Of a stretch of DNA of 64,000 bases, positions 40,007-49,474 are shown piece by piece. The notes below the pieces were generated by a model. It did not search any database. It saw only the letters and a program-made list of their open reading frames with translations, and was not told the DNA's origin. Made by a program: the position numbers and the translations under genes. The stretch's first letter is position 1. Every line of letters begins with the position of its first letter. The stretch is taken from assembly GCA_021154885.1 (NCBI GenBank), contig JAJKHS010000144.1:124001-188000 (forward strand). The letters are read 5' to 3'. Source of the DNA: Thermoanaerobaculum sp. (GTDB taxonomy: Bacteria > Acidobacteriota > Thermoanaerobaculia > Multivoradales > UBA5704).

Positions 40007-40044
40007 TTGACTAACCATGCTGGTCATGCGCTATCATGCGCATG
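40007..40044 (+). promoter_or_regulatory. argR promoter with overlapping palindromic operator
   Basis: TTGACT (40007-40012) and TATCAT (40032-40037) are 19 bp apart. The perfect palindrome CATGCGCATG (40035-40044) overlaps the -10, and CATGC is repeated at 40016 and 40025. Placement suits autoregulation by ArgR, although the sequence is not a canonical ARG box. Confidence 0.45.
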
Positions 40045-40064
40045 GATTTGCTGAGCGCGCAACC

Positions 40065-40520
40065 ATGCCCCACGATCACGAACATCGCGAAAGCCGCCAA
40101 CAGGAGATCCTCGCGATCCTGGACAACCACCGGGTGAGGAGCCAGGGAGAGCTGGTGGAGCTGCTGCGCGAGCGGGGGATCGCGGTGACCCAGTCGAGCG
40201 TCAGCCGCGACCTGCGGGACCTCGGGGTGGCGTGGATGGGCGGCCGCTATGCCCGGCCGGCGGAGCACGACGAGCGCGATCCCGGAGTGGCCGAGGTCTC
40301 CCACTTCCTGCGCGGCGTCAAGCCCTCGGGCCCCTATCTCACCGTCCTCTTCACCATGGCCGGAGCGGCGCAGGCCGTGGGCATCGCCCTGGACCGGGCC
40401 GGCTGGCCGGAGCTGGTGGGGACCATGGCCGGCGACGACACCGTCTTCGCGGCCACGGCCTCCGCCCGCGATCAGCGACGCCTCCTGCAGCGGCTGGAAG
40501 GCTTCCTCAAAGAGGAGTAG
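40065..40520 (+). CDS. argR: Arginine repressor
   Basis: 151 residues, normal length. N-terminal winged helix with RVRSQGELVELLRERGIAVTQSSVSRDL; C-terminal hexamerisation and arginine-binding domain with VGTMAGDDTVFAATAS, the GTxAGDDT motif. ATG 40065 is used because earlier in-frame ATGs lie in or before the promoter. First gene of the arginine cluster, which runs to 49474. Confidence 0.9.
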   Translation: MPHDHEHRESRQQEILAILDNHRVRSQGELVELLRERGIAVTQSSVSRDLRDLGVAWMGGRYARPAEHDERDPGVAEVSHFLRGVKPSGPYLTVLFTMAGAAQAVGIALDRAGWPELVGTMAGDDTVFAATASARDQRRLLQRLEGFLKEE

Positions 40521-40524
40521 ACCC

Positions 40525-41763
40525 ATGTCCGATCCCATCGTTCTCGCCTTCTCGGGCGGGCTGGACACGTCTTTCTGCATCCCGTGGCTCGCCGAGACCT
40601 ACGGCCGGCCCGTGGTGACCGTGACGGTGAACACGGGCGGCATCGATGCCGCGGCGGCGGAGTCGCTCGCCGCGCGGTCGCGCGCCCTGGGAGCGGCGGA
40701 CCACCTCCTGGTGGATGCCCTGGAGGCCTACTTTCAGCAGGTGCTGCGCTTCCTGATCATGGGCAACGTCCGCCGTGGCCAGGTCTACCCGCTCTGCGTG
40801 GGGGCCGAGCGGGTGCTCCAGGCACAGGAGGTGGCGAAGGCGGCGGAGCGGCTCGGCACCCTCACGGTGGCCCACGGCTCCACGGCCGCCGGCAACGATC
40901 AGGTGCGCTTCGAGGTGGCCCTGCGGACGCTGCGGCCCGGGCTCGAGATCCTGGCGCCGGTGCGGGACACGCCCCGGCCGCGGCCGGAGCAGGTGGCCTA
41001 TCTGGAGGAGCGGAACCTCCCCGTCCCCTCCTTCGGCGCCGCCTACTCCACCAACCGCGGCCTCTGGGGGGTGACCATCGGCGGCCAGGAGACGCTGGAC
41101 ACCGTGGCCTCGATCCCCGAGTCCGCCTGGGTCCTCACCCGCGGCGCCTTCGACGAGTCAACTGCGCCGGTCGCGCCGTCGCGCCATACGCTCGCCTTCA
41201 GGCAGGGACTACCCGTGGCGCTGGACGGCGAGGCTCTGGCGCCCGTCGCGCTCATCGAGAAGGTGGAGGCGCTCGCCGCCGGCTATGGCATCGGCCGTGG
41301 GATCCACCTGGGGGAGACGATCCTCGGCATCAAGGGGCGGGTGGCCTTCGAGGCTCCGGCCGCCGAGGTGCTCCTCACGGCCCACCGGGAGCTGGAGAAG
41401 CTCACCTCGACGGGCCGGCAGCTCCGGGTGAAGGAGACGGTCGCCGCCGTCTACGGCGACCTCGTCCACGAGGGGCAGCACCTCGACCCGGTCTGCCGCG
41501 ACATCGAGGCCCTGCTCCTCTCCTCGCAGGAGCGGGTCACGGGCGAGGTCCGCCTCCTGCTGCGGCCCGGGCAGGTGTTCGTCGAGGGGGTCTCATCCCC
41601 CTTCTCGCTGCGGGATGCCTCCCGCGGCGTCTACGGCGAGGCCGCCGGCGAGTGGACGGCGGCCGACGCGCGGGGCTTCTCGCGGATCGTCTCCCTGCCG
41701 GGCGAGTTGTACGCCAGAATCGCCCGGACACCGCGGATGCCCGGGGCGGGAGGCGTGCCGTGA
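40525..41763 (+). CDS. argG: Argininosuccinate synthase
   Basis: 412 residues. ATP-dependent ligation of citrulline and aspartate. P-loop motif LAFSGGLDTSF at the N-terminus, AHGSTAAGNDQVRFE for citrulline/aspartate binding and YSTNRGLWGVTIGG, of the type seen in Bacteroidota-like ArgG. Only 4 bp follow the argR stop. It overlaps the next gene by 4 bp (GTGA). Confidence 0.9.
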   Translation: MSDPIVLAFSGGLDTSFCIPWLAETYGRPVVTVTVNTGGIDAAAAESLAARSRALGAADHLLVDALEAYFQQVLRFLIMGNVRRGQVYPLCVGAERVLQAQEVAKAAERLGTLTVAHGSTAAGNDQVRFEVALRTLRPGLEILAPVRDTPRPRPEQVAYLEERNLPVPSFGAAYSTNRGLWGVTIGGQETLDTVASIPESAWVLTRGAFDESTAPVAPSRHTLAFRQGLPVALDGEALAPVALIEKVEALAAGYGIGRGIHLGETILGIKGRVAFEAPAAEVLLTAHRELEKLTSTGRQLRVKETVAAVYGDLVHEGQHLDPVCRDIEALLLSSQERVTGEVRLLLRPGQVFVEGVSSPFSLRDASRGVYGEAAGEWTAADARGFSRIVSLPGELYARIARTPRMPGAGGVP

Positions 41764-42836
41764 AGACCGTGCTGCTGGACAAGATCGCCTCCGTCACCCG
41801 CGCCTGCCAGCTCAAGCGGGAGGTGCGGGTGAGCGCGGACATCCCCTGCGAGGAGGGGGTGGTGGTGGCCGTGCGGGTGAAGAACGACAAGACGACCTAC
41901 AGCCAGCTCGAGCTGCCCAGCGGCCGCATGGCGCAGGTGAAGAAGGGCGACGTCGTGGCCGGGGCCCTCGGCCACCGCCACGCCCTGTTCGGCTACTCCG
42001 GCCACCTGCCCAGGCGGCTGGCGCCGGGGGACACGATCCACCTGCTCAACATGGGGGGCGTGCTGGGGATCTGCGACTCGGTGAATCCGGACCTGGGACA
42101 GCCCTTCGAGTGCGAGGTGCTGGGGGCGGTGCTCCACTTCCCCTATCTGGGGGAGCGGATCGGCATCGCCGCCCGCATCGGCGACCAGACGCTGAACCTC
42201 GCCGCGCCCCTCGATGCGGCGGGCGTGCCGGTGGTAGCCCTGGTCGGCTCGTGCATGAACTGCGGCAAGACGGCCGCCGCCTGCACCCTGGTGCGGCATC
42301 TCAGCCATGGCGGCTTCACGGTGGACGGCCTCAAGGCCACCGGCGTCTCCCTGCGTCGGGACACGCTGGCCATGGAGGACGCCGGCGCCCGCACGACCGG
42401 CCTCTTCACCGACCTGGGGGTGGTCTCCACGACGCCGGCGAACGCCCCGGCCGTGACCCGCACCCTGCTGACGCATCTCGCGGCCGCGCGGCCGGACGTC
42501 ATCGTGGCCGAGCTGGGGGACGGTCTGCTGGGAGCCTACGGGGTCGCGGCCATCCTGGAGGACGCAGAGATCCGCGCCGCCTTCACCGCCGTGGTGCTCG
42601 CGGCCAACGATCCGGTGGCGGCGTGGGGTGGGGTGCGCATGCTGCGCGAACGGTTCGGCATCGAGCCGGCGGCGGTCACCGGTCCGGCCACGGACAACCT
42701 GGCCGGCACGGCGATCATCGAGGAGGCGCTGGGGGTGTCCGCCATCAACGCCCGCACGAACGGCGAGAGACTGGCCGCCCGGGTGCGGGAGGCGCTGGGT
42801 CTGGACGTGCCGGCCGCCGAGGTGGTGGCGCGGTGA
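41760..42836 (+). CDS. P-loop NTPase-like protein of unknown function in the arginine operon
   Basis: 358 residues, GTG start overlapping argG. Residues 1-150 look like a beta-rich domain (SQLELPSGRMAQVKKGDVVA, ALGHRHALFGYSGHLPRRL, GDTIHLLNMGGVLGICDSV). Residues 157-358 are a P-loop domain with Walker A G163-SCMNC-GKT, then LKATGVSLRRDTLAMEDAGA and DVIVAELGDGLLGAYGV. It faintly recalls DUF1611/DgcN proteins, from memory only. It overlaps both argG and argC, so it is certainly co-translated with arginine genes. It could supply the missing glutamate N-acylation step or regulate the pathway; both are hypotheses. Confidence 0.7.
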   Translation: MKTVLLDKIASVTRACQLKREVRVSADIPCEEGVVVAVRVKNDKTTYSQLELPSGRMAQVKKGDVVAGALGHRHALFGYSGHLPRRLAPGDTIHLLNMGGVLGICDSVNPDLGQPFECEVLGAVLHFPYLGERIGIAARIGDQTLNLAAPLDAAGVPVVALVGSCMNCGKTAAACTLVRHLSHGGFTVDGLKATGVSLRRDTLAMEDAGARTTGLFTDLGVVSTTPANAPAVTRTLLTHLAAARPDVIVAELGDGLLGAYGVAAILEDAEIRAAFTAVVLAANDPVAAWGGVRMLRERFGIEPAAVTGPATDNLAGTAIIEEALGVSAINARTNGERLAARVREALGLDVPAAEVVAR

Positions 42837-43906
42837 GCGAAGCTGTCCCCGAAACCATCCCCACGCTGGTCCTCGGCGGGTCCGGATACGTGGCCGGCGA
42901 GCTGCTGCGGCTCCTGGCCGGCCACCCGCACCTGCGGCCTTTCGCCGCGCTTTCGGAGAGCCAGGCGGGGGGCGCGGTGGAGGCCGCCTTCCCGCACCTC
43001 GCGGGGTGCTTTCCGGAGCTGAATTTTTCGGATCGGAAGGAGTTGCCGCGCCTGGTCGACGGGCATGGGACACTCGCCGTGCTTTGCGCCGCCCCCCACG
43101 GCGCCGCCGCGCCGCTCCTCGACGAGCTGCTGACGATCGCCGGGCTGGCGGGGACGGCGGTCAAGGTGGTGGATATTTCCGCCGATTTCCGGTTCTCGCT
43201 TGCGTCGGACTACGAAAAAACCTACGGCCGCGCCCACGGCGCGCCGAATCGGCTCCCCCAGTTCCACTGCGCCCTGCCCGAGCACCTGGCCGAGACGCCG
43301 GAAGGACACGTGGGACACCCCGGCTGCTTCGTGACGGCGACGTTGCTGGCCATCGTCCCCCTGCTGAAGCTGGGGCTGGTGGAACCACGCCTCTCCGTGG
43401 TCGCCATCACCGGCAGCACCGGAGCGGGGAGGACGCCCACGGCCTCCGCCCACCACCCGGCGCGGCGCAGCAACGTCTTCGCCTACAGCCCGCTCAAGCA
43501 CCGCCACGAGCCCGAGATGCGCGCCCTGGCCACGGTGGCCTCAGGAGTCGACGCCGAGATCCACTTCGTCCCCCAGTCCGGGCCGTTCGCCCGCGGGATC
43601 TATGCCACGATCCAGGCCCGTCTCGCCCGGCCCGCGACGGCGGAGGAGGTGCGGCACTCCCTGGCCGACTTCTATGCCGCCTCGCCCTTCGTGGACGTCC
43701 TCGCCGAGCCGCCCCGCCTCCAGGACGTGGTGGGGACGAACCGCGCCCGCCTCTCCGTGGCGGTGGACGGCGATCACCTGGTGGTGTTTTCGACTCTGGA
43801 CAACCTGGTGAAGGGCGCGGCCGGCGGCGCGATCCAATGGATGAACCGCCTGCTGGGATTCCCCGAGACGGCGGGATTGCAGGTGCCCGGATTGGGGTGG
43901 GTATGA
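42833..43906 (+). CDS. argC: N-acyl-gamma-glutamyl-phosphate reductase
   Basis: 357 residues, GTG start at 42833 overlapping the previous stop. NADPH-dependent reduction of N-acylglutamyl phosphate to the semialdehyde. Rossmann start LVLGGSGYVAGELLRLL; catalytic Cys in GHPGCFVTATLLAI; GSTGAGRTPTASAHHP and the late His in SPLKHRHEPEM. Last gene before a 150-bp gap containing two hairpins. Confidence 0.95.
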   Translation: MSEAVPETIPTLVLGGSGYVAGELLRLLAGHPHLRPFAALSESQAGGAVEAAFPHLAGCFPELNFSDRKELPRLVDGHGTLAVLCAAPHGAAAPLLDELLTIAGLAGTAVKVVDISADFRFSLASDYEKTYGRAHGAPNRLPQFHCALPEHLAETPEGHVGHPGCFVTATLLAIVPLLKLGLVEPRLSVVAITGSTGAGRTPTASAHHPARRSNVFAYSPLKHRHEPEMRALATVASGVDAEIHFVPQSGPFARGIYATIQARLARPATAEEVRHSLADFYAASPFVDVLAEPPRLQDVVGTNRARLSVAVDGDHLVVFSTLDNLVKGAAGGAIQWMNRLLGFPETAGLQVPGLGWV

Positions 43907-44026: not shown

Positions 44027-44055
44027 ACTAACTCCGCTTTTTGTTGGAGATGACG

Positions 44056-45234
44056 ATGACCGACACCGCCGTGGCCCCCACCCCTCAGGCCGATCTGGAC
44101 GAGGCCCGCTGGCTGCTGCCCGTCTACGCGCACACCCCGGTCGAGCCGGTCTGGGGCGAGGGGGTCACCGTCCACACCCGCGACGGCCGTGCGCTGCTCG
44201 ACTTCTACGGCGGCCACGCCGTGGCCCTGCTGGGCTATCGGCATCCACGGCTGCTGGCGGCCCTGGGCGGCCAGGCGGAGGAGCTCTTCTTCCAGAGCAA
44301 CTCGGTGCCCCTGGCCGTGCGCGCCCGCGCGGCCGAGCGGCTGGTGCGCTTCGGCCCGGCGGGGCTCTCCCGGGCCTTCCTCGTCAACAGCGGCGCCGAA
44401 GCGAACGAGAACGCCTTGCGCCTTGCCTTCCGGCACACCCATCGCAGCCGGGTCATCGCGCTGGAAGGGTCGTTCCACGGCCGCACCGCCGGCGCGGCGG
44501 CCGTCACCTGGAAGTCGCAGGGCTGGTACGGCTTTCCCCGCACTCCCTTCGATGTCACCTTCGCGCCCCGCAAGGATTTGCAGGCCCTCCGCGCCGCCCT
44601 GGGTCCGGACGTGGCCGCCGTCATCGTCGAACCCGTCCAGGGCATGGCTGGCGCGATCGATCTGGGAGCGGAGTACCTCGCCGCCGCGCGGGAGCTCACC
44701 CGCGAGGCGGGGGCGCTGCTGATCTTCGACGAGGTGCAGTGCGGCATGGGGCGGACCGGTCATCCGTTCGCGGCTCAGGCCTACGGCGTGACGCCGGACC
44801 TCCTCACGACGGCCAAAGGGATCGCCGGCGGCTTCCCCGCCGGCGCCCTGTTGGTGACCGATGAGGTGGGGCAAGGGCTCAAAACGGGCGACCTGGGGAC
44901 CACCTTCGGCGGCGGTCCCCTGGCCTGCGCTCTGATCGAGGCCGTGATCGACGCCATTGAGGAAGACGGTCTCCTCCCCCGCGTGCGGCAGCTCTCCCGG
45001 CTCATCCGCGAGACCTGCCAGGTGGGGCCGGTGGCAGGTATCCAGGGCGAGGGTTTCCTCCTTGGCCTGCGGACCACACGGCCGGCGCGGGCGATCGTCG
45101 ACGAGCTGCTGACCAAGGGGATCCTGGCGGGGACGAGCGGCGATCCCAACGTCGTCCGTCTCCTGCCCCCGTTGGTGCTGGAGGAGGCCCACGTCGCGGC
45201 ACTGGCCCGGGCGCTCTCCGAGGTCCGGCCTTGA
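44056..45234 (+). CDS. argD: N-acylornithine aminotransferase
   Basis: 392 residues of class III PLP aminotransferases; converts N-acylglutamate semialdehyde to N-acylornithine. VNSGAEANENALRLAFRHT, GSFHGRTAGA, LIFDEVQCGMGRTG with the PLP-contacting Asp, and the Schiff-base Lys in TTAKGIAGGFP are all present. ATG 44056 has GGAG six nt upstream, better placed than ATG 44050 or TTG 44041. Overlaps argF' by 4 bp. Confidence 0.9.
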   Translation: MTDTAVAPTPQADLDEARWLLPVYAHTPVEPVWGEGVTVHTRDGRALLDFYGGHAVALLGYRHPRLLAALGGQAEELFFQSNSVPLAVRARAAERLVRFGPAGLSRAFLVNSGAEANENALRLAFRHTHRSRVIALEGSFHGRTAGAAAVTWKSQGWYGFPRTPFDVTFAPRKDLQALRAALGPDVAAVIVEPVQGMAGAIDLGAEYLAAARELTREAGALLIFDEVQCGMGRTGHPFAAQAYGVTPDLLTTAKGIAGGFPAGALLVTDEVGQGLKTGDLGTTFGGGPLACALIEAVIDAIEEDGLLPRVRQLSRLIRETCQVGPVAGIQGEGFLLGLRTTRPARAIVDELLTKGILAGTSGDPNVVRLLPPLVLEEAHVAALARALSEVRP

Positions 45235-46247
45235 AGAGCTTCCTCGATCTCGCGGCTTTGGGCCCGGAGGAGGTGGCGGACCTCCTCTCCCTGGCCGTGC
45301 GCCTGGAGCGATCCCCGGAGCCGGAGGCCCTGAAGGGGAAGATCCTCGCGCTCCTCTTCTTCAACCCGTCGTTGCGCACTCTCGCCTCGTTCCAGGCGGG
45401 GATGGCACGGCTGGGGGGGAGCGCGTTCGTCATCTCCCCGGGGCAGGGGACGTGGATCCTGGAGACCCGGGACGGCGTGGTGATGGACGGCACCGCTGCC
45501 GAGCACGTGCGTGAGGCCATCCCCGTGCTGGCGTCCTACGCCGACGCCCTGGGGATCCGCTCCTTCGCCGGCGGCGCGGACCTGGCGGCGGACCTCGCGG
45601 ACTCGACCTTCCTGAGCATGGCCAAGGTCTGCCCCGTGCCGCTGATCAACCTGGAGTCGGCCGTCGATCACCCCTGCCAGGCCCTGGGGGATTGGAAGAC
45701 GATGGACGATCTCGGCGTCCCGGCTCGGGGCGGCCGGTTCGTCCTCTCCTGGGCGTGGCACCCGAAGCCGCTCCCTCTCGCGGTGCCGGCGGCGGTCGTC
45801 CACATGGCGGCGCAGCGGGGGATGGACGTCACCCTGCTCCGCCCCGAGGGGTTCGGCCTACCGGAGCCGATCCTGGCGCGAGCCCGGCGGGCGGCGGAGA
45901 CCTCCGGCGGCTCGCTACGGGAGACGGCGGACCGCCGCGAGGCCCTGGAAGGGGCGCACGTGATCTACGCCAAGTCGTGGGCCTCGCCCGTTCACTACGG
46001 CAATGCCGAAGCCGAGGCGGCCTTCCGGGCCAGCCTGCGGGACTGGTGCGTGGGCGAGGACTGGTTCGCCACCACGGCGCCGGACTGCCGCTTCATGCAC
46101 TGCCTGCCGGTGCGGCGCAACGTCGTGGTGAAGGATGCGGTGCTCGATGGACCGCGCAGCGTCGTGGTCCACGAGGCGCGCAACCGCATGTGGGCCCAGA
46201 TGGCGGTGCTCCACCGCCTGCTCCGGAAGCAAGGAGAAGAACGATGA
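45231..46247 (+). CDS. argF': N-acylornithine carbamoyltransferase, succinyl type suspected
   Basis: 338 residues, TTG start at 45231 overlapping argD. Motifs are of the acylornithine group, not ornithine carbamoyltransferase: FFNPSLRT, HPCQALGD, WAWHPKPLPLAVP and HCLPVRRN. In the acyl-specificity loop (VMDGTAAEHVREAIPV) the residue aligned from memory with Glu92 of the Xanthomonas acetyl enzyme and Pro90 of the Bacteroides succinyl enzyme is Ala. Loss of that Glu favours succinylornithine, and other segments (EAIPV, PLPxAVP) also resemble the succinyl type. Confidence 0.8.
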   Translation: MKSFLDLAALGPEEVADLLSLAVRLERSPEPEALKGKILALLFFNPSLRTLASFQAGMARLGGSAFVISPGQGTWILETRDGVVMDGTAAEHVREAIPVLASYADALGIRSFAGGADLAADLADSTFLSMAKVCPVPLINLESAVDHPCQALGDWKTMDDLGVPARGGRFVLSWAWHPKPLPLAVPAAVVHMAAQRGMDVTLLRPEGFGLPEPILARARRAAETSGGSLRETADRREALEGAHVIYAKSWASPVHYGNAEAEAAFRASLRDWCVGEDWFATTAPDCRFMHCLPVRRNVVVKDAVLDGPRSVVVHEARNRMWAQMAVLHRLLRKQGEER

Positions 46248-47203
46248 AAGACGTCGGTCAGCGGACGGCCGAAGCCACGGCCCTGAAGCACGCGGTGCCG
46301 TACATCCGGATCTTCAAGGGCAAGACCTTCGTCCTCAAGGCCGGGGGTGGAGCCCTGGAGCGCGAGGCCACCGCCCGCGCCCTGGTCGAGCAGGTGGACG
46401 TGCTCCACCAAGTGGGCATCCGCGTCGTCCTGGTGCACGGCGGCGGCACCCAGTCCACCGGCCTGGCCCAGGCCCTGGGCGCCGAGGCCCGCTTCGTCGA
46501 GGGGCGGCGGGTGACGGACGAGAAGGCCCTGGAGGTGGCTGCCATGGTGCTCAACGGCGCGGTCAACACCCAGCTCCTCGCCGTCTGCCGCCGGCTGGGG
46601 CTGCCGGCCGTGGGGGTCTCGGGCGTGGACGCCGGGCTCATCCAGGCCAGGAAGCGCCCACCGGTGCGGGTGGGGGACGAGCTGGTGGATTACGGCTTCG
46701 TGGGCGACGTCGCCGCCGTCGATCCCAAAGTCCTGATCTCGCTCCTGGACGCGGGCTACGTGCCGGTGGTGAGCCCGCTCTCAGCCGCGGACGACGGTAC
46801 GCTGCTCAACATCAACGCCGACACGGTGGCCTCGGCCCTGGCCGTGGCCTTGAAGGCCGAGAAGCTCCTCTTCCTCACCGGGGCGGCGGGCATCCTGGAG
46901 CGGCCTGACGACCCCGGCTCCCTGGTCTCCTACACCGACCTCGCCGGCTTGCGCAGGTTGCGGGACGAGGGCGGACTGGTGAAGGGGATGCTGCCCAAGA
47001 CCTCGGCCATCGAGGCGGCCATCCACGGCGGTGTGCGGCGCGTGCACATCCTCTCCCACGACCTGCCGGACGGCCTGCTGGCCGAGGTGTTCACTAACGA
47101 GGGGGTGGGAACCCTGGTGGTCGAGGACGTCGATGCCCTCTCCCCGGCGGAGCAGGCGGCGGGGCACCCGGTTGCACCCGCGTTCGCAGGCGGAGCTTCC
47201 TGA
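46244..47203 (+). CDS. argB: N-acylglutamate kinase
   Basis: 319 residues of the amino-acid kinase family; phosphorylates N-acylglutamate. FVLKAGGGALE is the phosphate loop, VVLVHGGGTQSTGLAQ the second glycine loop, with NINADTVASALAVALKAEKLLFLT and LVKGMLPKTSAIEAAIHGGV binding nucleotide. There is no C-terminal GNAT domain, so it is not a bifunctional synthase/kinase. Overlaps argF' by 4 bp. Confidence 0.9.
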   Translation: MKDVGQRTAEATALKHAVPYIRIFKGKTFVLKAGGGALEREATARALVEQVDVLHQVGIRVVLVHGGGTQSTGLAQALGAEARFVEGRRVTDEKALEVAAMVLNGAVNTQLLAVCRRLGLPAVGVSGVDAGLIQARKRPPVRVGDELVDYGFVGDVAAVDPKVLISLLDAGYVPVVSPLSAADDGTLLNINADTVASALAVALKAEKLLFLTGAAGILERPDDPGSLVSYTDLAGLRRLRDEGGLVKGMLPKTSAIEAAIHGGVRRVHILSHDLPDGLLAEVFTNEGVGTLVVEDVDALSPAEQAAGHPVAPAFAGGAS

Positions 47204-47204
47204 G

Positions 47205-48293
47205 ATGCTCCCCGAGCGCGAGATCCTCGCCCTGCACCGGGCCATCACGGCCATCCGCTCGGTCTCCGGCGAGGAGGCCGGACTGGCCGATTTCCTGGCC
47301 GACCTGCTGGGGCGCAACGGCATCGCCGCGGCGCGGATCGGCAACAGCCTCCTCGCCACCCTCGGCCGCGGCCCCCTGCTGCTCCTGGACACCCACCTGG
47401 ATACCGTGCCGCCGGCCCCCGGCTGGACGCGGGAGCCCTGGGACGTGCAGTCCGTCGACGGCCGGGTTTACGGCCTGGGCGCCAACGACGCCAAGGCCGC
47501 GGTGACGGCGATGACGGTCGCCTTCCTCGCCTTCCGCGAGGCGGACCTGCCGTTCACCCTGGCCCTGGCCCTGGTGGAGGGGGAGGAGACGCGGGGCACC
47601 GGCACCGAGGCCGTGCTCGCCGAGCTGGCCCGCCGCGGCACGCCCCCGCACGCCGCCATGGTGGGGGAGCCCACGGGGCTCGACGTCGCGGTGGCCCAGA
47701 AGGGGCTCATGGTCCTGGAGCTGATCACCCACGGCGACGCCTGCCACGCCGCCCACGCCACCGCCCTGGGAGCCAAGAACGCCGCCCGCCGCCTGGCCCA
47801 CGACCTCGTGGCCCTGGAGCGGGTGGACTTCGGCCCGCCCCACCCCCGGCTCGGCTCCATCACCCTGGAGCCCACGCAGCTCCGGGCCGGCACGGCCCGC
47901 AACGTGGTGCCGGGGGAGGCCGTGGCGCTGCTCGACGTCCGCACCACCCCGGCCCTCGGCCGCCGGGAGGTGGTGGAACGGATCGAGCGGGCGGTCATGG
48001 GCGAGGTGCGGGTGCTCTCCGATCGCCTGCTGCCGCGGGAGACCGCCGAGAGCGAGCCGCTGGTGGCTGCCGCCCTCCGCGCTCGCCCCGAGGCGCGACT
48101 CTTCGGCTCGGCCACCCTCTCGGACCTGGTCTTCATGGCGGGCATTCCCGCCCTCAAGTGCGGCCCGGGACAGACGGAACGCTCCCACACGCCGGACGAA
48201 TTCGTCCTGGAGAGTGAGATTCTGGAGGGCGCCCGCTTCTATACTCGGTTCGTGCGGGCCTATGCCGAGATGCGGGAAGAGGAGGCGGCGTGA
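47205..48293 (+). CDS. argE': N-acylcitrulline deacylase, M20 family
   Basis: 362 residues. M20 metallohydrolase with zinc ligands in LLDTHLDTVPP, GANDAKAAV, the EE pair in VEGEETRGTGTEA, and the terminal His in RSHTPDEFV. In pathways with an acylornithine carbamoyltransferase this enzyme removes the acyl group from acylcitrulline to give citrulline for ArgG; it could also act on acylornithine. One base separates it from argB. Confidence 0.85.
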   Translation: MLPEREILALHRAITAIRSVSGEEAGLADFLADLLGRNGIAAARIGNSLLATLGRGPLLLLDTHLDTVPPAPGWTREPWDVQSVDGRVYGLGANDAKAAVTAMTVAFLAFREADLPFTLALALVEGEETRGTGTEAVLAELARRGTPPHAAMVGEPTGLDVAVAQKGLMVLELITHGDACHAAHATALGAKNAARRLAHDLVALERVDFGPPHPRLGSITLEPTQLRAGTARNVVPGEAVALLDVRTTPALGRREVVERIERAVMGEVRVLSDRLLPRETAESEPLVAAALRARPEARLFGSATLSDLVFMAGIPALKCGPGQTERSHTPDEFVLESEILEGARFYTRFVRAYAEMREEEAA

Positions 48294-49474
48294 GCCGTCT
48301 TTGGGACAAGGGCGAGCCCCTCGACGGCCGCGTCCTGCGCTACACCGCGGGCGAGGACCACCGCCTCGACGCTCGCCTCGTCCCCTACGACGTCCGCGCC
48401 TCAATCGCCCACGCCGAGATGCTCCACGAGGTCGGGCTCCTGGCGGCGGGAGACCTGGCGGCCATCCGCTCAGGGCTGGAGGAGCTGGAGGAGGAGCACG
48501 CCGAGGGCGTCTGGGAGATCGCGCTGGAGGATGAGGACGTCCACACCGCTCTGGAGATCCGCCTGACGGCGCGGATCGGCGAAGCCGGCGCCCGCGTCCA
48601 CCTCGGCCGCTCGCGCAACGACCAGATTTTGGCCGCCCTCCGCCTGTACCTGCGGGATGCCGTCGCGGCTCTGGCGACCGGAACCCAGGAGGTGGCAGCC
48701 GCTCTGGACGGGCTTGGAGAACGGGAGTCCGGGACGGTCCTCCCCGGCTACACCCACCTTCAGCAGGCGATGCCCAGCTCCGTCCTCCTTTGGGCTTCGG
48801 GCTTCGCCGCCGAGCTGCGGGACGACGCCCTGGGCATCGAGGCCTGCTCGCGTCGCATCGAGAAGAACCCCCTCGGCTCCGCGGCGGGCTACGGCGTTCC
48901 CCGCTTGCCGCTGGATCGGGAGACGACCCGCCGCAAGCTGGGCTTCGCCGAGGTCCAGGAGCCGGTGACCGCCGTCCAGCTCTCGCGCGGCAAGGCGGAG
49001 GGCCAGGTCCTCTTCGAATTGACCCTGCTGATGCAGGACCTGGGGCGCCTCGCCGCGGACCTCGTCCTCTTCGCCACCGCCGAATTCGCCTTCGTGAGCC
49101 TCCCGTCCTCCATGACGACCGGCTCCTCGATCATGCCCCAGAAGCGGAATCCGGATGTTCTCGAGCTGGTCCGCGGTCGGACTGCCACGGCTCAAGGCTG
49201 CCTCTTCGAGGCGCTGAGCATCACCGCCAAGCTCCCCTCGGGCTATCACCGGGACCTCCAGCTTCTCAAAGCCCCCCTTTTCCGGGGGATCGACCTCGCC
49301 ACGGAGACCCTCGCCATCCTCACCGCCGCCCTCCCCGAGCTGCGCTTCCACCCCGAGCGGATCCGCCTGGAGCCCGGTGTCTACGCCGCCGAGGAGGCGT
49401 ACCGGCTGGTGTTGGAGGAGAGGATTCCATTCCGGGAGGCGTACCGGCGGGTGGGGAAGAAATTCAAGGAGTAG
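48290..49474 (+). CDS. argH: Argininosuccinate lyase
   Basis: 394 residues, somewhat short of the usual 450-460. Releases arginine and fumarate. Family motifs: [35 protein letters not shown] and the catalytic Ser loop [18 protein letters not shown] start overlaps argE' by 4 bp. Last gene of the arginine operon; the reduced length reflects a shorter C-terminus. Confidence 0.95.

Follow-up and report, generated by a model that had tools for sequence, protein, structure and literature searches.

A P-loop protein encoded in an acidobacterial arginine operon as a predicted N-acyl-L-glutamate synthase, probably of the succinyl type

We propose that a gene of the arginine operon of Thermoanaerobaculum sp., here called X, encodes the entry enzyme of the arginine pathway, an N-acyl-L-glutamate synthase that most likely forms the N-succinyl intermediate. 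We would put the probability of this reading, acyl group included, at roughly two in three (0.65); N-acylation of glutamate, whatever the acyl group, is a prediction that we hold with good confidence. X lies on the forward strand at 41760–42836 of the window, by which we mean the whole stretch of 64,000 nucleotides that was analysed. The proposal draws on the constant association of X with genes for acylglutamate metabolism, on its absence from genomes that carry known suppliers of acylglutamate, on its predicted fold and on the residues of the carbamoyltransferase encoded beside it.

The gene and its neighbourhood

The reading frame of X is open across exactly these coordinates and encodes 358 residues from a GTG start. 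It begins within the stop of argG (overlap of 4 bp, 41760–41763) and ends within the GTG start of argC (4 bp, 42833–42836), just as the initial annotation had described it. Orthologues at 59–86% identity share the same start residue and substitutions are mostly synonymous (dN/dS of about 0.27 and about 0.17 against two relatives); the gene is under purifying selection and is more than a chance reading frame.

The operon, all on the forward strand, reads argR (arginine repressor, 40017–40520; PF01316 and PF02863), argG (argininosuccinate synthase, 40525–41763), X, argC (N-acyl-gamma-glutamyl-phosphate reductase, 42833–43906; TIGR01850 above its cut-off), argD (acylornithine aminotransferase, 44041–45234), argF' (knotted acylornithine carbamoyltransferase, 45231–46247), argB (acylglutamate kinase, 46244–47203), a gene for an argE-like M20 deacylase, predicted to act on acylcitrulline (47205–48293), and argH (argininosuccinate lyase, 48290–49474). 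These assignments rest on profile matches; the starts of argG, argB and the argE-like gene are inferred, and those of argG and argB (40525 and 46244) slightly amend the initial annotation. Its central claim stands: every step from acylglutamate to arginine is encoded here, no GNAT synthase is present in the operon, and ArgB consists of the AA_kinase domain with no GNAT domain attached. The absence of ArgJ holds for the whole of the organism's own genome, where PF01960 finds no match. That genome encodes 32 GNAT proteins (PF00583) with no assigned role, none of them inside this operon. A scan for promoters and terminators returned nothing exceeding chance.

The company that X keeps is constant. 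All 13 orthologues found among 59 relatives adjoin argC, in two operon layouts, the rearranged one being argR-argG-argD-argB-X-argC-argH, and the same is true of 80 of 80 among the best 80 of 361 named relatives. These named loci are mostly gammaproteobacterial (Steroidobacteraceae, Woeseiaceae, Chromatiales, Lysobacterales), and the usual layout in the best 80 is argR-argG-X-argC-argD-argF'-argB-argH. In distant acidobacterial lineages X stands beside argC at each of the 15 non-paralogue loci inspected, and in three of these lineages the cluster is X-argC-argD-argB alone, that is, X together with the enzymes leading from acylglutamate to acylornithine. X is thus linked to the acylglutamate pathway as would be expected of an N-acylglutamate synthase, and the neighbourhood survey that the initial annotation had suggested finds it constantly with argC, including in clusters that lack a carbamoyltransferase gene. 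We considered whether X might be a partner of the carbamoyltransferase and rejected the idea, because X keeps with argC in the minimal clusters, where no carbamoyltransferase is near.

Several further features of these loci were recorded. The minimal clusters (L200:6042-10108, L201:5940-10063, L202:6314-10383) have no argF, argG or argH nearby. The argE-like gene occurs in just 3 of the best 80 named loci (L099:8151-16487 is an example without it), and in the gammaproteobacterial operons that lack it deacylation must therefore depend on a gene elsewhere or on a different protein. In three relatives without X (G023, G057, G047) argC sits in clusters without argG or argH which, judged from gene content, look like LysW-type lysine clusters.

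Fold, family and a possible reaction

The initial annotation had noted a faint resemblance of X to DUF1611/DgcN, and the fold of one of its two domains bears this out. An AlphaFold2 model built with 63 sequences (pLDDT 89.7, pTM 0.87) shows an N-terminal domain of about residues 1–152 (41760–42215), predicted to be beta-rich, and a P-loop domain of about residues 153–358 (42216–42833). The latter has the P-loop fold of DUF1611/DgcN in the predicted structure, matching 2g0t (DUF1611; Z 17.6, 2.8 Å over 183 residues), 2obn (DUF1611; Z 17.2, 2.8 Å over 188) and 7xrj (DgcN; Z 16.2, 2.9 Å over 186), and when the profile of X is compared by hhalign with 18 genuine DUF1611 proteins it is the P-loop domain alone that aligns, as a weak match (90% probability, pairwise E of 1.5e-6). 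CTP synthase ties with the DUF1611 structures, however (Z 17.0), and dethiobiotin synthetase and HypB come close (Z of about 16). On the model, then, the domain belongs in the dethiobiotin-synthetase-like group of P-loop proteins; the match to DUF1611 is strong, not exclusive, and the fold therefore does not point to acyl transfer specifically. Compared alone with known folds, the N-terminal domain gives a best Z of 3.5, no convincing match.

Family membership is another matter. PF07755 (DUF1611) gives no match to the X of the window at E ≤ 1 and its gathering score is not reached; among the relatives of X, 39 of 63 give weak matches, the best at 0.0017. The DgcN equivalog NF041892, which gives true DUF1611 proteins 122–136 bits, is absent from the families matched by the 63 members of X, and the DUF1611-type N-terminal domain has no Pfam match in any of them. 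The Walker A motif GTDxxxGKRTT is invariant in the 18 DUF1611 proteins, whereas X has G[ST]CMxxGKTxA. Seven genomes (G066, G108, G120, G160, G214, G221, G266) carry a genuine DUF1611 gene in addition to an arg-linked X, and the two are therefore separate genes. We reject X as a member of DUF1611/DgcN, since it falls below every curated cut-off and its N-terminal domain does not align; it is a distant relative. Membership of MobB was rejected as well: matches are below threshold (PF03205, 18.9 of 26.6 bits; TIGR00176, 14.3 of 76.2 bits; weak matches in 47 of 63 relatives), and the operon is without molybdenum genes. The profile searches against DUF1611 and MobB-like families that had been suggested for X thus yield weak matches to the P-loop below every curated cut-off, and what survives of the earlier likeness to DgcN is the fold of the P-loop domain. 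No GNAT family is among the Pfam or NCBIfam matches of X, the ArgJ model PF01960 does not match it, and a search of PDB sequences with X or its profile returned nothing significant.

The conserved residues of X cluster around the P-loop. The Walker A motif GSCMNCGKT, already noticed in the initial annotation, occupies residues 163–171 (42246–42272). Cys165, Gly169, Lys170 and Thr171 of this motif are invariant in 13 diverse arg-linked X proteins, as are Lys192 (42333–42335), in a KxTG motif which follows the domain's second strand, Asp201, Glu251, Gly253, Asp254, Gly255 and Asp284. The ELGDG motif of residues 251–255 (42510–42524), a Walker-B-like acidic loop, is invariant across the 12 and the 63 closest orthologues. 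Cys165 is replaced by Ser in all seven distant paralogues aligned.

Distant paralogues occur in varied surroundings. Two adjoin genes for M20 deacylases of the ArgE/DapE type, once with a flavin reductase (L026:1067-3933, L029:8681-11111), and others, from several phyla, adjoin ABC exporter genes (L207:7749-10640, L028:8089-10742, L291:4842-7612, L293:4848-7486); the exporter-linked group includes Rhodobacterales plasmids (Sulfitobacter, Paracoccus), where the NCBI name is DUF1611. A plasmid of Priestia megaterium (NZ_CP085446.1, L292:1730-10418) carries one within a presumed cluster for a phosphonate natural product, whose other genes encode a PEP mutase, TPP enzymes, two ATP-grasp enzymes, an M20 peptidase, a luciferase-like oxidoreductase and an ornithine carbamoyltransferase, which might be a self-resistance copy. 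One paralogue lacks the lysine and threonine of Walker A, with GRA in place of GKT (L027:8323-9450). The contexts are compatible with a chemistry of N-acylated amino acids and are no proof of it.

The reaction that we infer for X would be transfer of an acyl group, most likely succinyl, onto the amino group of L-glutamate, in place of ArgA, ArgJ or the fusion of N-acetylglutamate synthase and kinase (NAGS-kinase fusion). The product would pass through ArgB, ArgC and ArgD to an ArgF' of the succinylornithine type, and from there through the deacylase to ArgG and ArgH. Within X, the P-loop GxCMxxGKT, Lys192 and the acidic ELGDG loop would bind the activating group by its phosphates. On the model of DgcN that group would be acyl-CoA, with the phosphates of CoA bound by the P-loop; on that of dethiobiotin synthetase and CTP synthase it could be ATP, used to form an acyl phosphate. 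The canonical GKT of X favours use of a nucleotide while its kinship with DgcN favours CoA, and the presence of GKT where DUF1611 has GKRTT makes the CoA analogy uncertain. We lean slightly to the CoA-dependent reading. It is conceivable, if on balance unlikely, that X is instead an ATP-dependent ligase joining free succinate to L-glutamate by way of succinyl phosphate, with no part for CoA; were this true, X would differ from all known synthases in its fold, its chemistry and the source of its energy.

The acyl group and the known synthases

The initial annotation had recorded argF' without considering its specificity, which can be read from three positions. Acetylornithine carbamoyltransferases (AOTCase) have Glu92, Asn185 and Lys302, where succinylornithine carbamoyltransferases (SOTCase) have A/S/P/V/Q, P and V/I/E (PMC4581275). 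The ArgF' of the window has A, P and V at these positions (A90, P182 and V299 in its own numbering), which are residues of the SOTCase type. In X operons Glu never occurs at position 92, which is occupied by A, S, T, P or I, and every operon in which position 185 was read has P there. At position 302, 41 of the named and mostly gammaproteobacterial X operons have A and 25 have V; the acidobacterial ones have V, I, E or, in a single case (A-P-K), K. The published SOTCase list does not include Thr or Ile at position 92, nor Ala at position 302. Operons with the NAGS-kinase fusion, by contrast, have the acetylornithine signature E-N-K in four of four cases. Since the succinyl type goes with X and the acetyl type with the fusion, X most likely makes N-succinylglutamate, and from these residues we consider succinyl the probable acyl group, if by no great measure. 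NCBIfam names the ArgF' of the window an N-acetylornithine carbamoyltransferase, over its cut-off; the residues suggest that this name is wrong here, and it may be wrong for the whole group of carbamoyltransferases in X operons. That NCBIfam name, and the label of N-acetyltransferase given to the fold relative DgcN, would suit an X that fills the same place in the pathway as an N-acetyl-L-glutamate synthase, with acetyl intermediates throughout. We regard this as improbable, given that X operons carry succinyl-type residues and that acetyl-type residues appear only in fusion operons, which lack X.

If X replaces the known synthases, it should be missing where they are present, and in the genomes tested it is. 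Among 396 genomes of the phylum, X (counted as close X, E < 1e-50) occurs in 99 and ArgJ in 144, with no genome holding both, where 36 would be expected were the two independent. Five of the ArgJ genomes carry distant paralogues of X only, and no arg genes lie near those distant paralogues whose surroundings were read. A sample of 137 genomes from one gammaproteobacterial order gives the same picture, with X in 100, plain ArgB in 101 and 99 shared, and with neither ArgJ nor a long ArgA over cut-off in any of the 137. We do not count as exceptions the two genomes with plain ArgB and no X (G586, G563), since their operons are cut by contig ends. The remaining four argB genomes of the order have a different operon, with a NAGS-kinase fusion and no X; the fusion is confirmed by Pfam in one (L226; AA_kinase and NAT, 2.2e-44), and in the other three it was recognised by eye, since length and C-terminal sequence agree. 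Neither X nor argB was found in 31 of the 137. Forty named X genomes likewise contain no long ArgA over cut-off, with sporadic weak matches to the GNAT part. The overlap with ArgJ is thus 0 of 99 and the fusion appears only where X is absent, although the lineages carrying X are related and these counts are not phylogenetically independent.

The pattern fits a substitute enzyme better than a helper, and it bears on the alternative of a nucleotide-dependent regulator, already raised in the initial annotation. On this reading X would regulate or chaperone arginine enzymes such as ArgC, while an unlinked GNAT makes the acylglutamate. The fold class does hold maturation factors (HypB and MobB-like proteins), and any of the 32 GNATs of the organism's own genome could in principle act on glutamate. 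A helper, however, would not be expected to vanish from all genomes with ArgJ or the NAGS-kinase fusion, and a genome of 1.6 Mb (which may be incomplete) has X and, by the PF00583 model, a single GNAT, which is RimI; we therefore think the regulator quite unlikely. A GNAT synthase that always accompanies X, which the initial annotation had named as the finding that would overturn its proposal, did not turn up in the genomes examined, and single unlinked GNATs could still act in individual cases. A new N-acylglutamate synthase, as first proposed there, is thus well supported by the neighbourhood and by the mutual exclusion with ArgJ and the NAGS-kinase fusion, and the reaction would be as set out above. 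Least probable by far is that X acts on another substrate, for example D-glutamate as in its distant fold relative DgcN, with its place in the arg operon incidental or catabolic, given that X is constantly linked to argC and argB across two phyla, frequently in an operon led by ArgR, and that it fails to reach the curated DgcN and DUF1611 models.

Relation to known pathways and implications

X can be set beside several known systems. DUF1611/DgcN (PF07755; 2g0t, 2obn, 7xrj) shares its P-loop fold and, DgcN being labelled a D-glutamate N-acetyltransferase, has an isomer of glutamate as reported substrate, but it has its own N-terminal domain and GKRTT in place of GKT. Dethiobiotin synthetase, CTP synthase, MobB and HypB (SIMIBI) share the P-loop fold too, and the Walker A motif of dethiobiotin synthetase, GTDTEVGKT, resembles that of X; they differ in N-terminal domain and genome context and give no significant sequence match (E of 1.1). 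ArgJ (PF01960), the alternative supplier of acylglutamate, is an unrelated family never found with an arg-linked X in one genome.

The GNAT synthases (ArgA, the NAGS-kinase fusion and the ArgA of Bacteroidetes and Caldithrix) share with X the predicted step and the kind of operon, and exclude it where this was tested, but they carry a GNAT domain where X has the fold of a P-loop NTPase. BT3761 and Cabys_1732 we take to be GNAT proteins as well. In Caldithrix, Cabys_1732 precedes argG, while X lies here between argG and argC. The specificity residues of the carbamoyltransferase in X operons match the SOTCase of the succinylated Bacteroidetes pathway, in which intermediates are reported to be succinylated and the first enzyme to be a different one, BT3761, related to Cabys_1732 (PMC7311316).

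In the part of the literature that we covered, we found no proposal of this role for X. A survey reports that Holophagaceae, with the exception of Acidiparvus, are without N-acetylglutamate synthase (PMC11561045), a gap of the kind that X would fill; the pathway of Acidiparvus is complete by the annotation method of that survey (PMC11561045), which counts against our reading. The gene dgcN has been reported in Woeseiales (PMC12363236), and we suspect, as a suspicion only, that some of these genes are X.

If the proposal is true, X would close a gap that annotation leaves in the arginine pathway of the Acidobacteriota and of a large gammaproteobacterial order, and predictions of auxotrophy that are wrong on this account would be corrected. 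Succinylated arginine synthesis would reach beyond the Bacteroidetes, succinylornithine would be the substrate of many enzymes now named N-acetylornithine carbamoyltransferase, and a P-loop family that is without a Pfam entry of its own would gain a first function.
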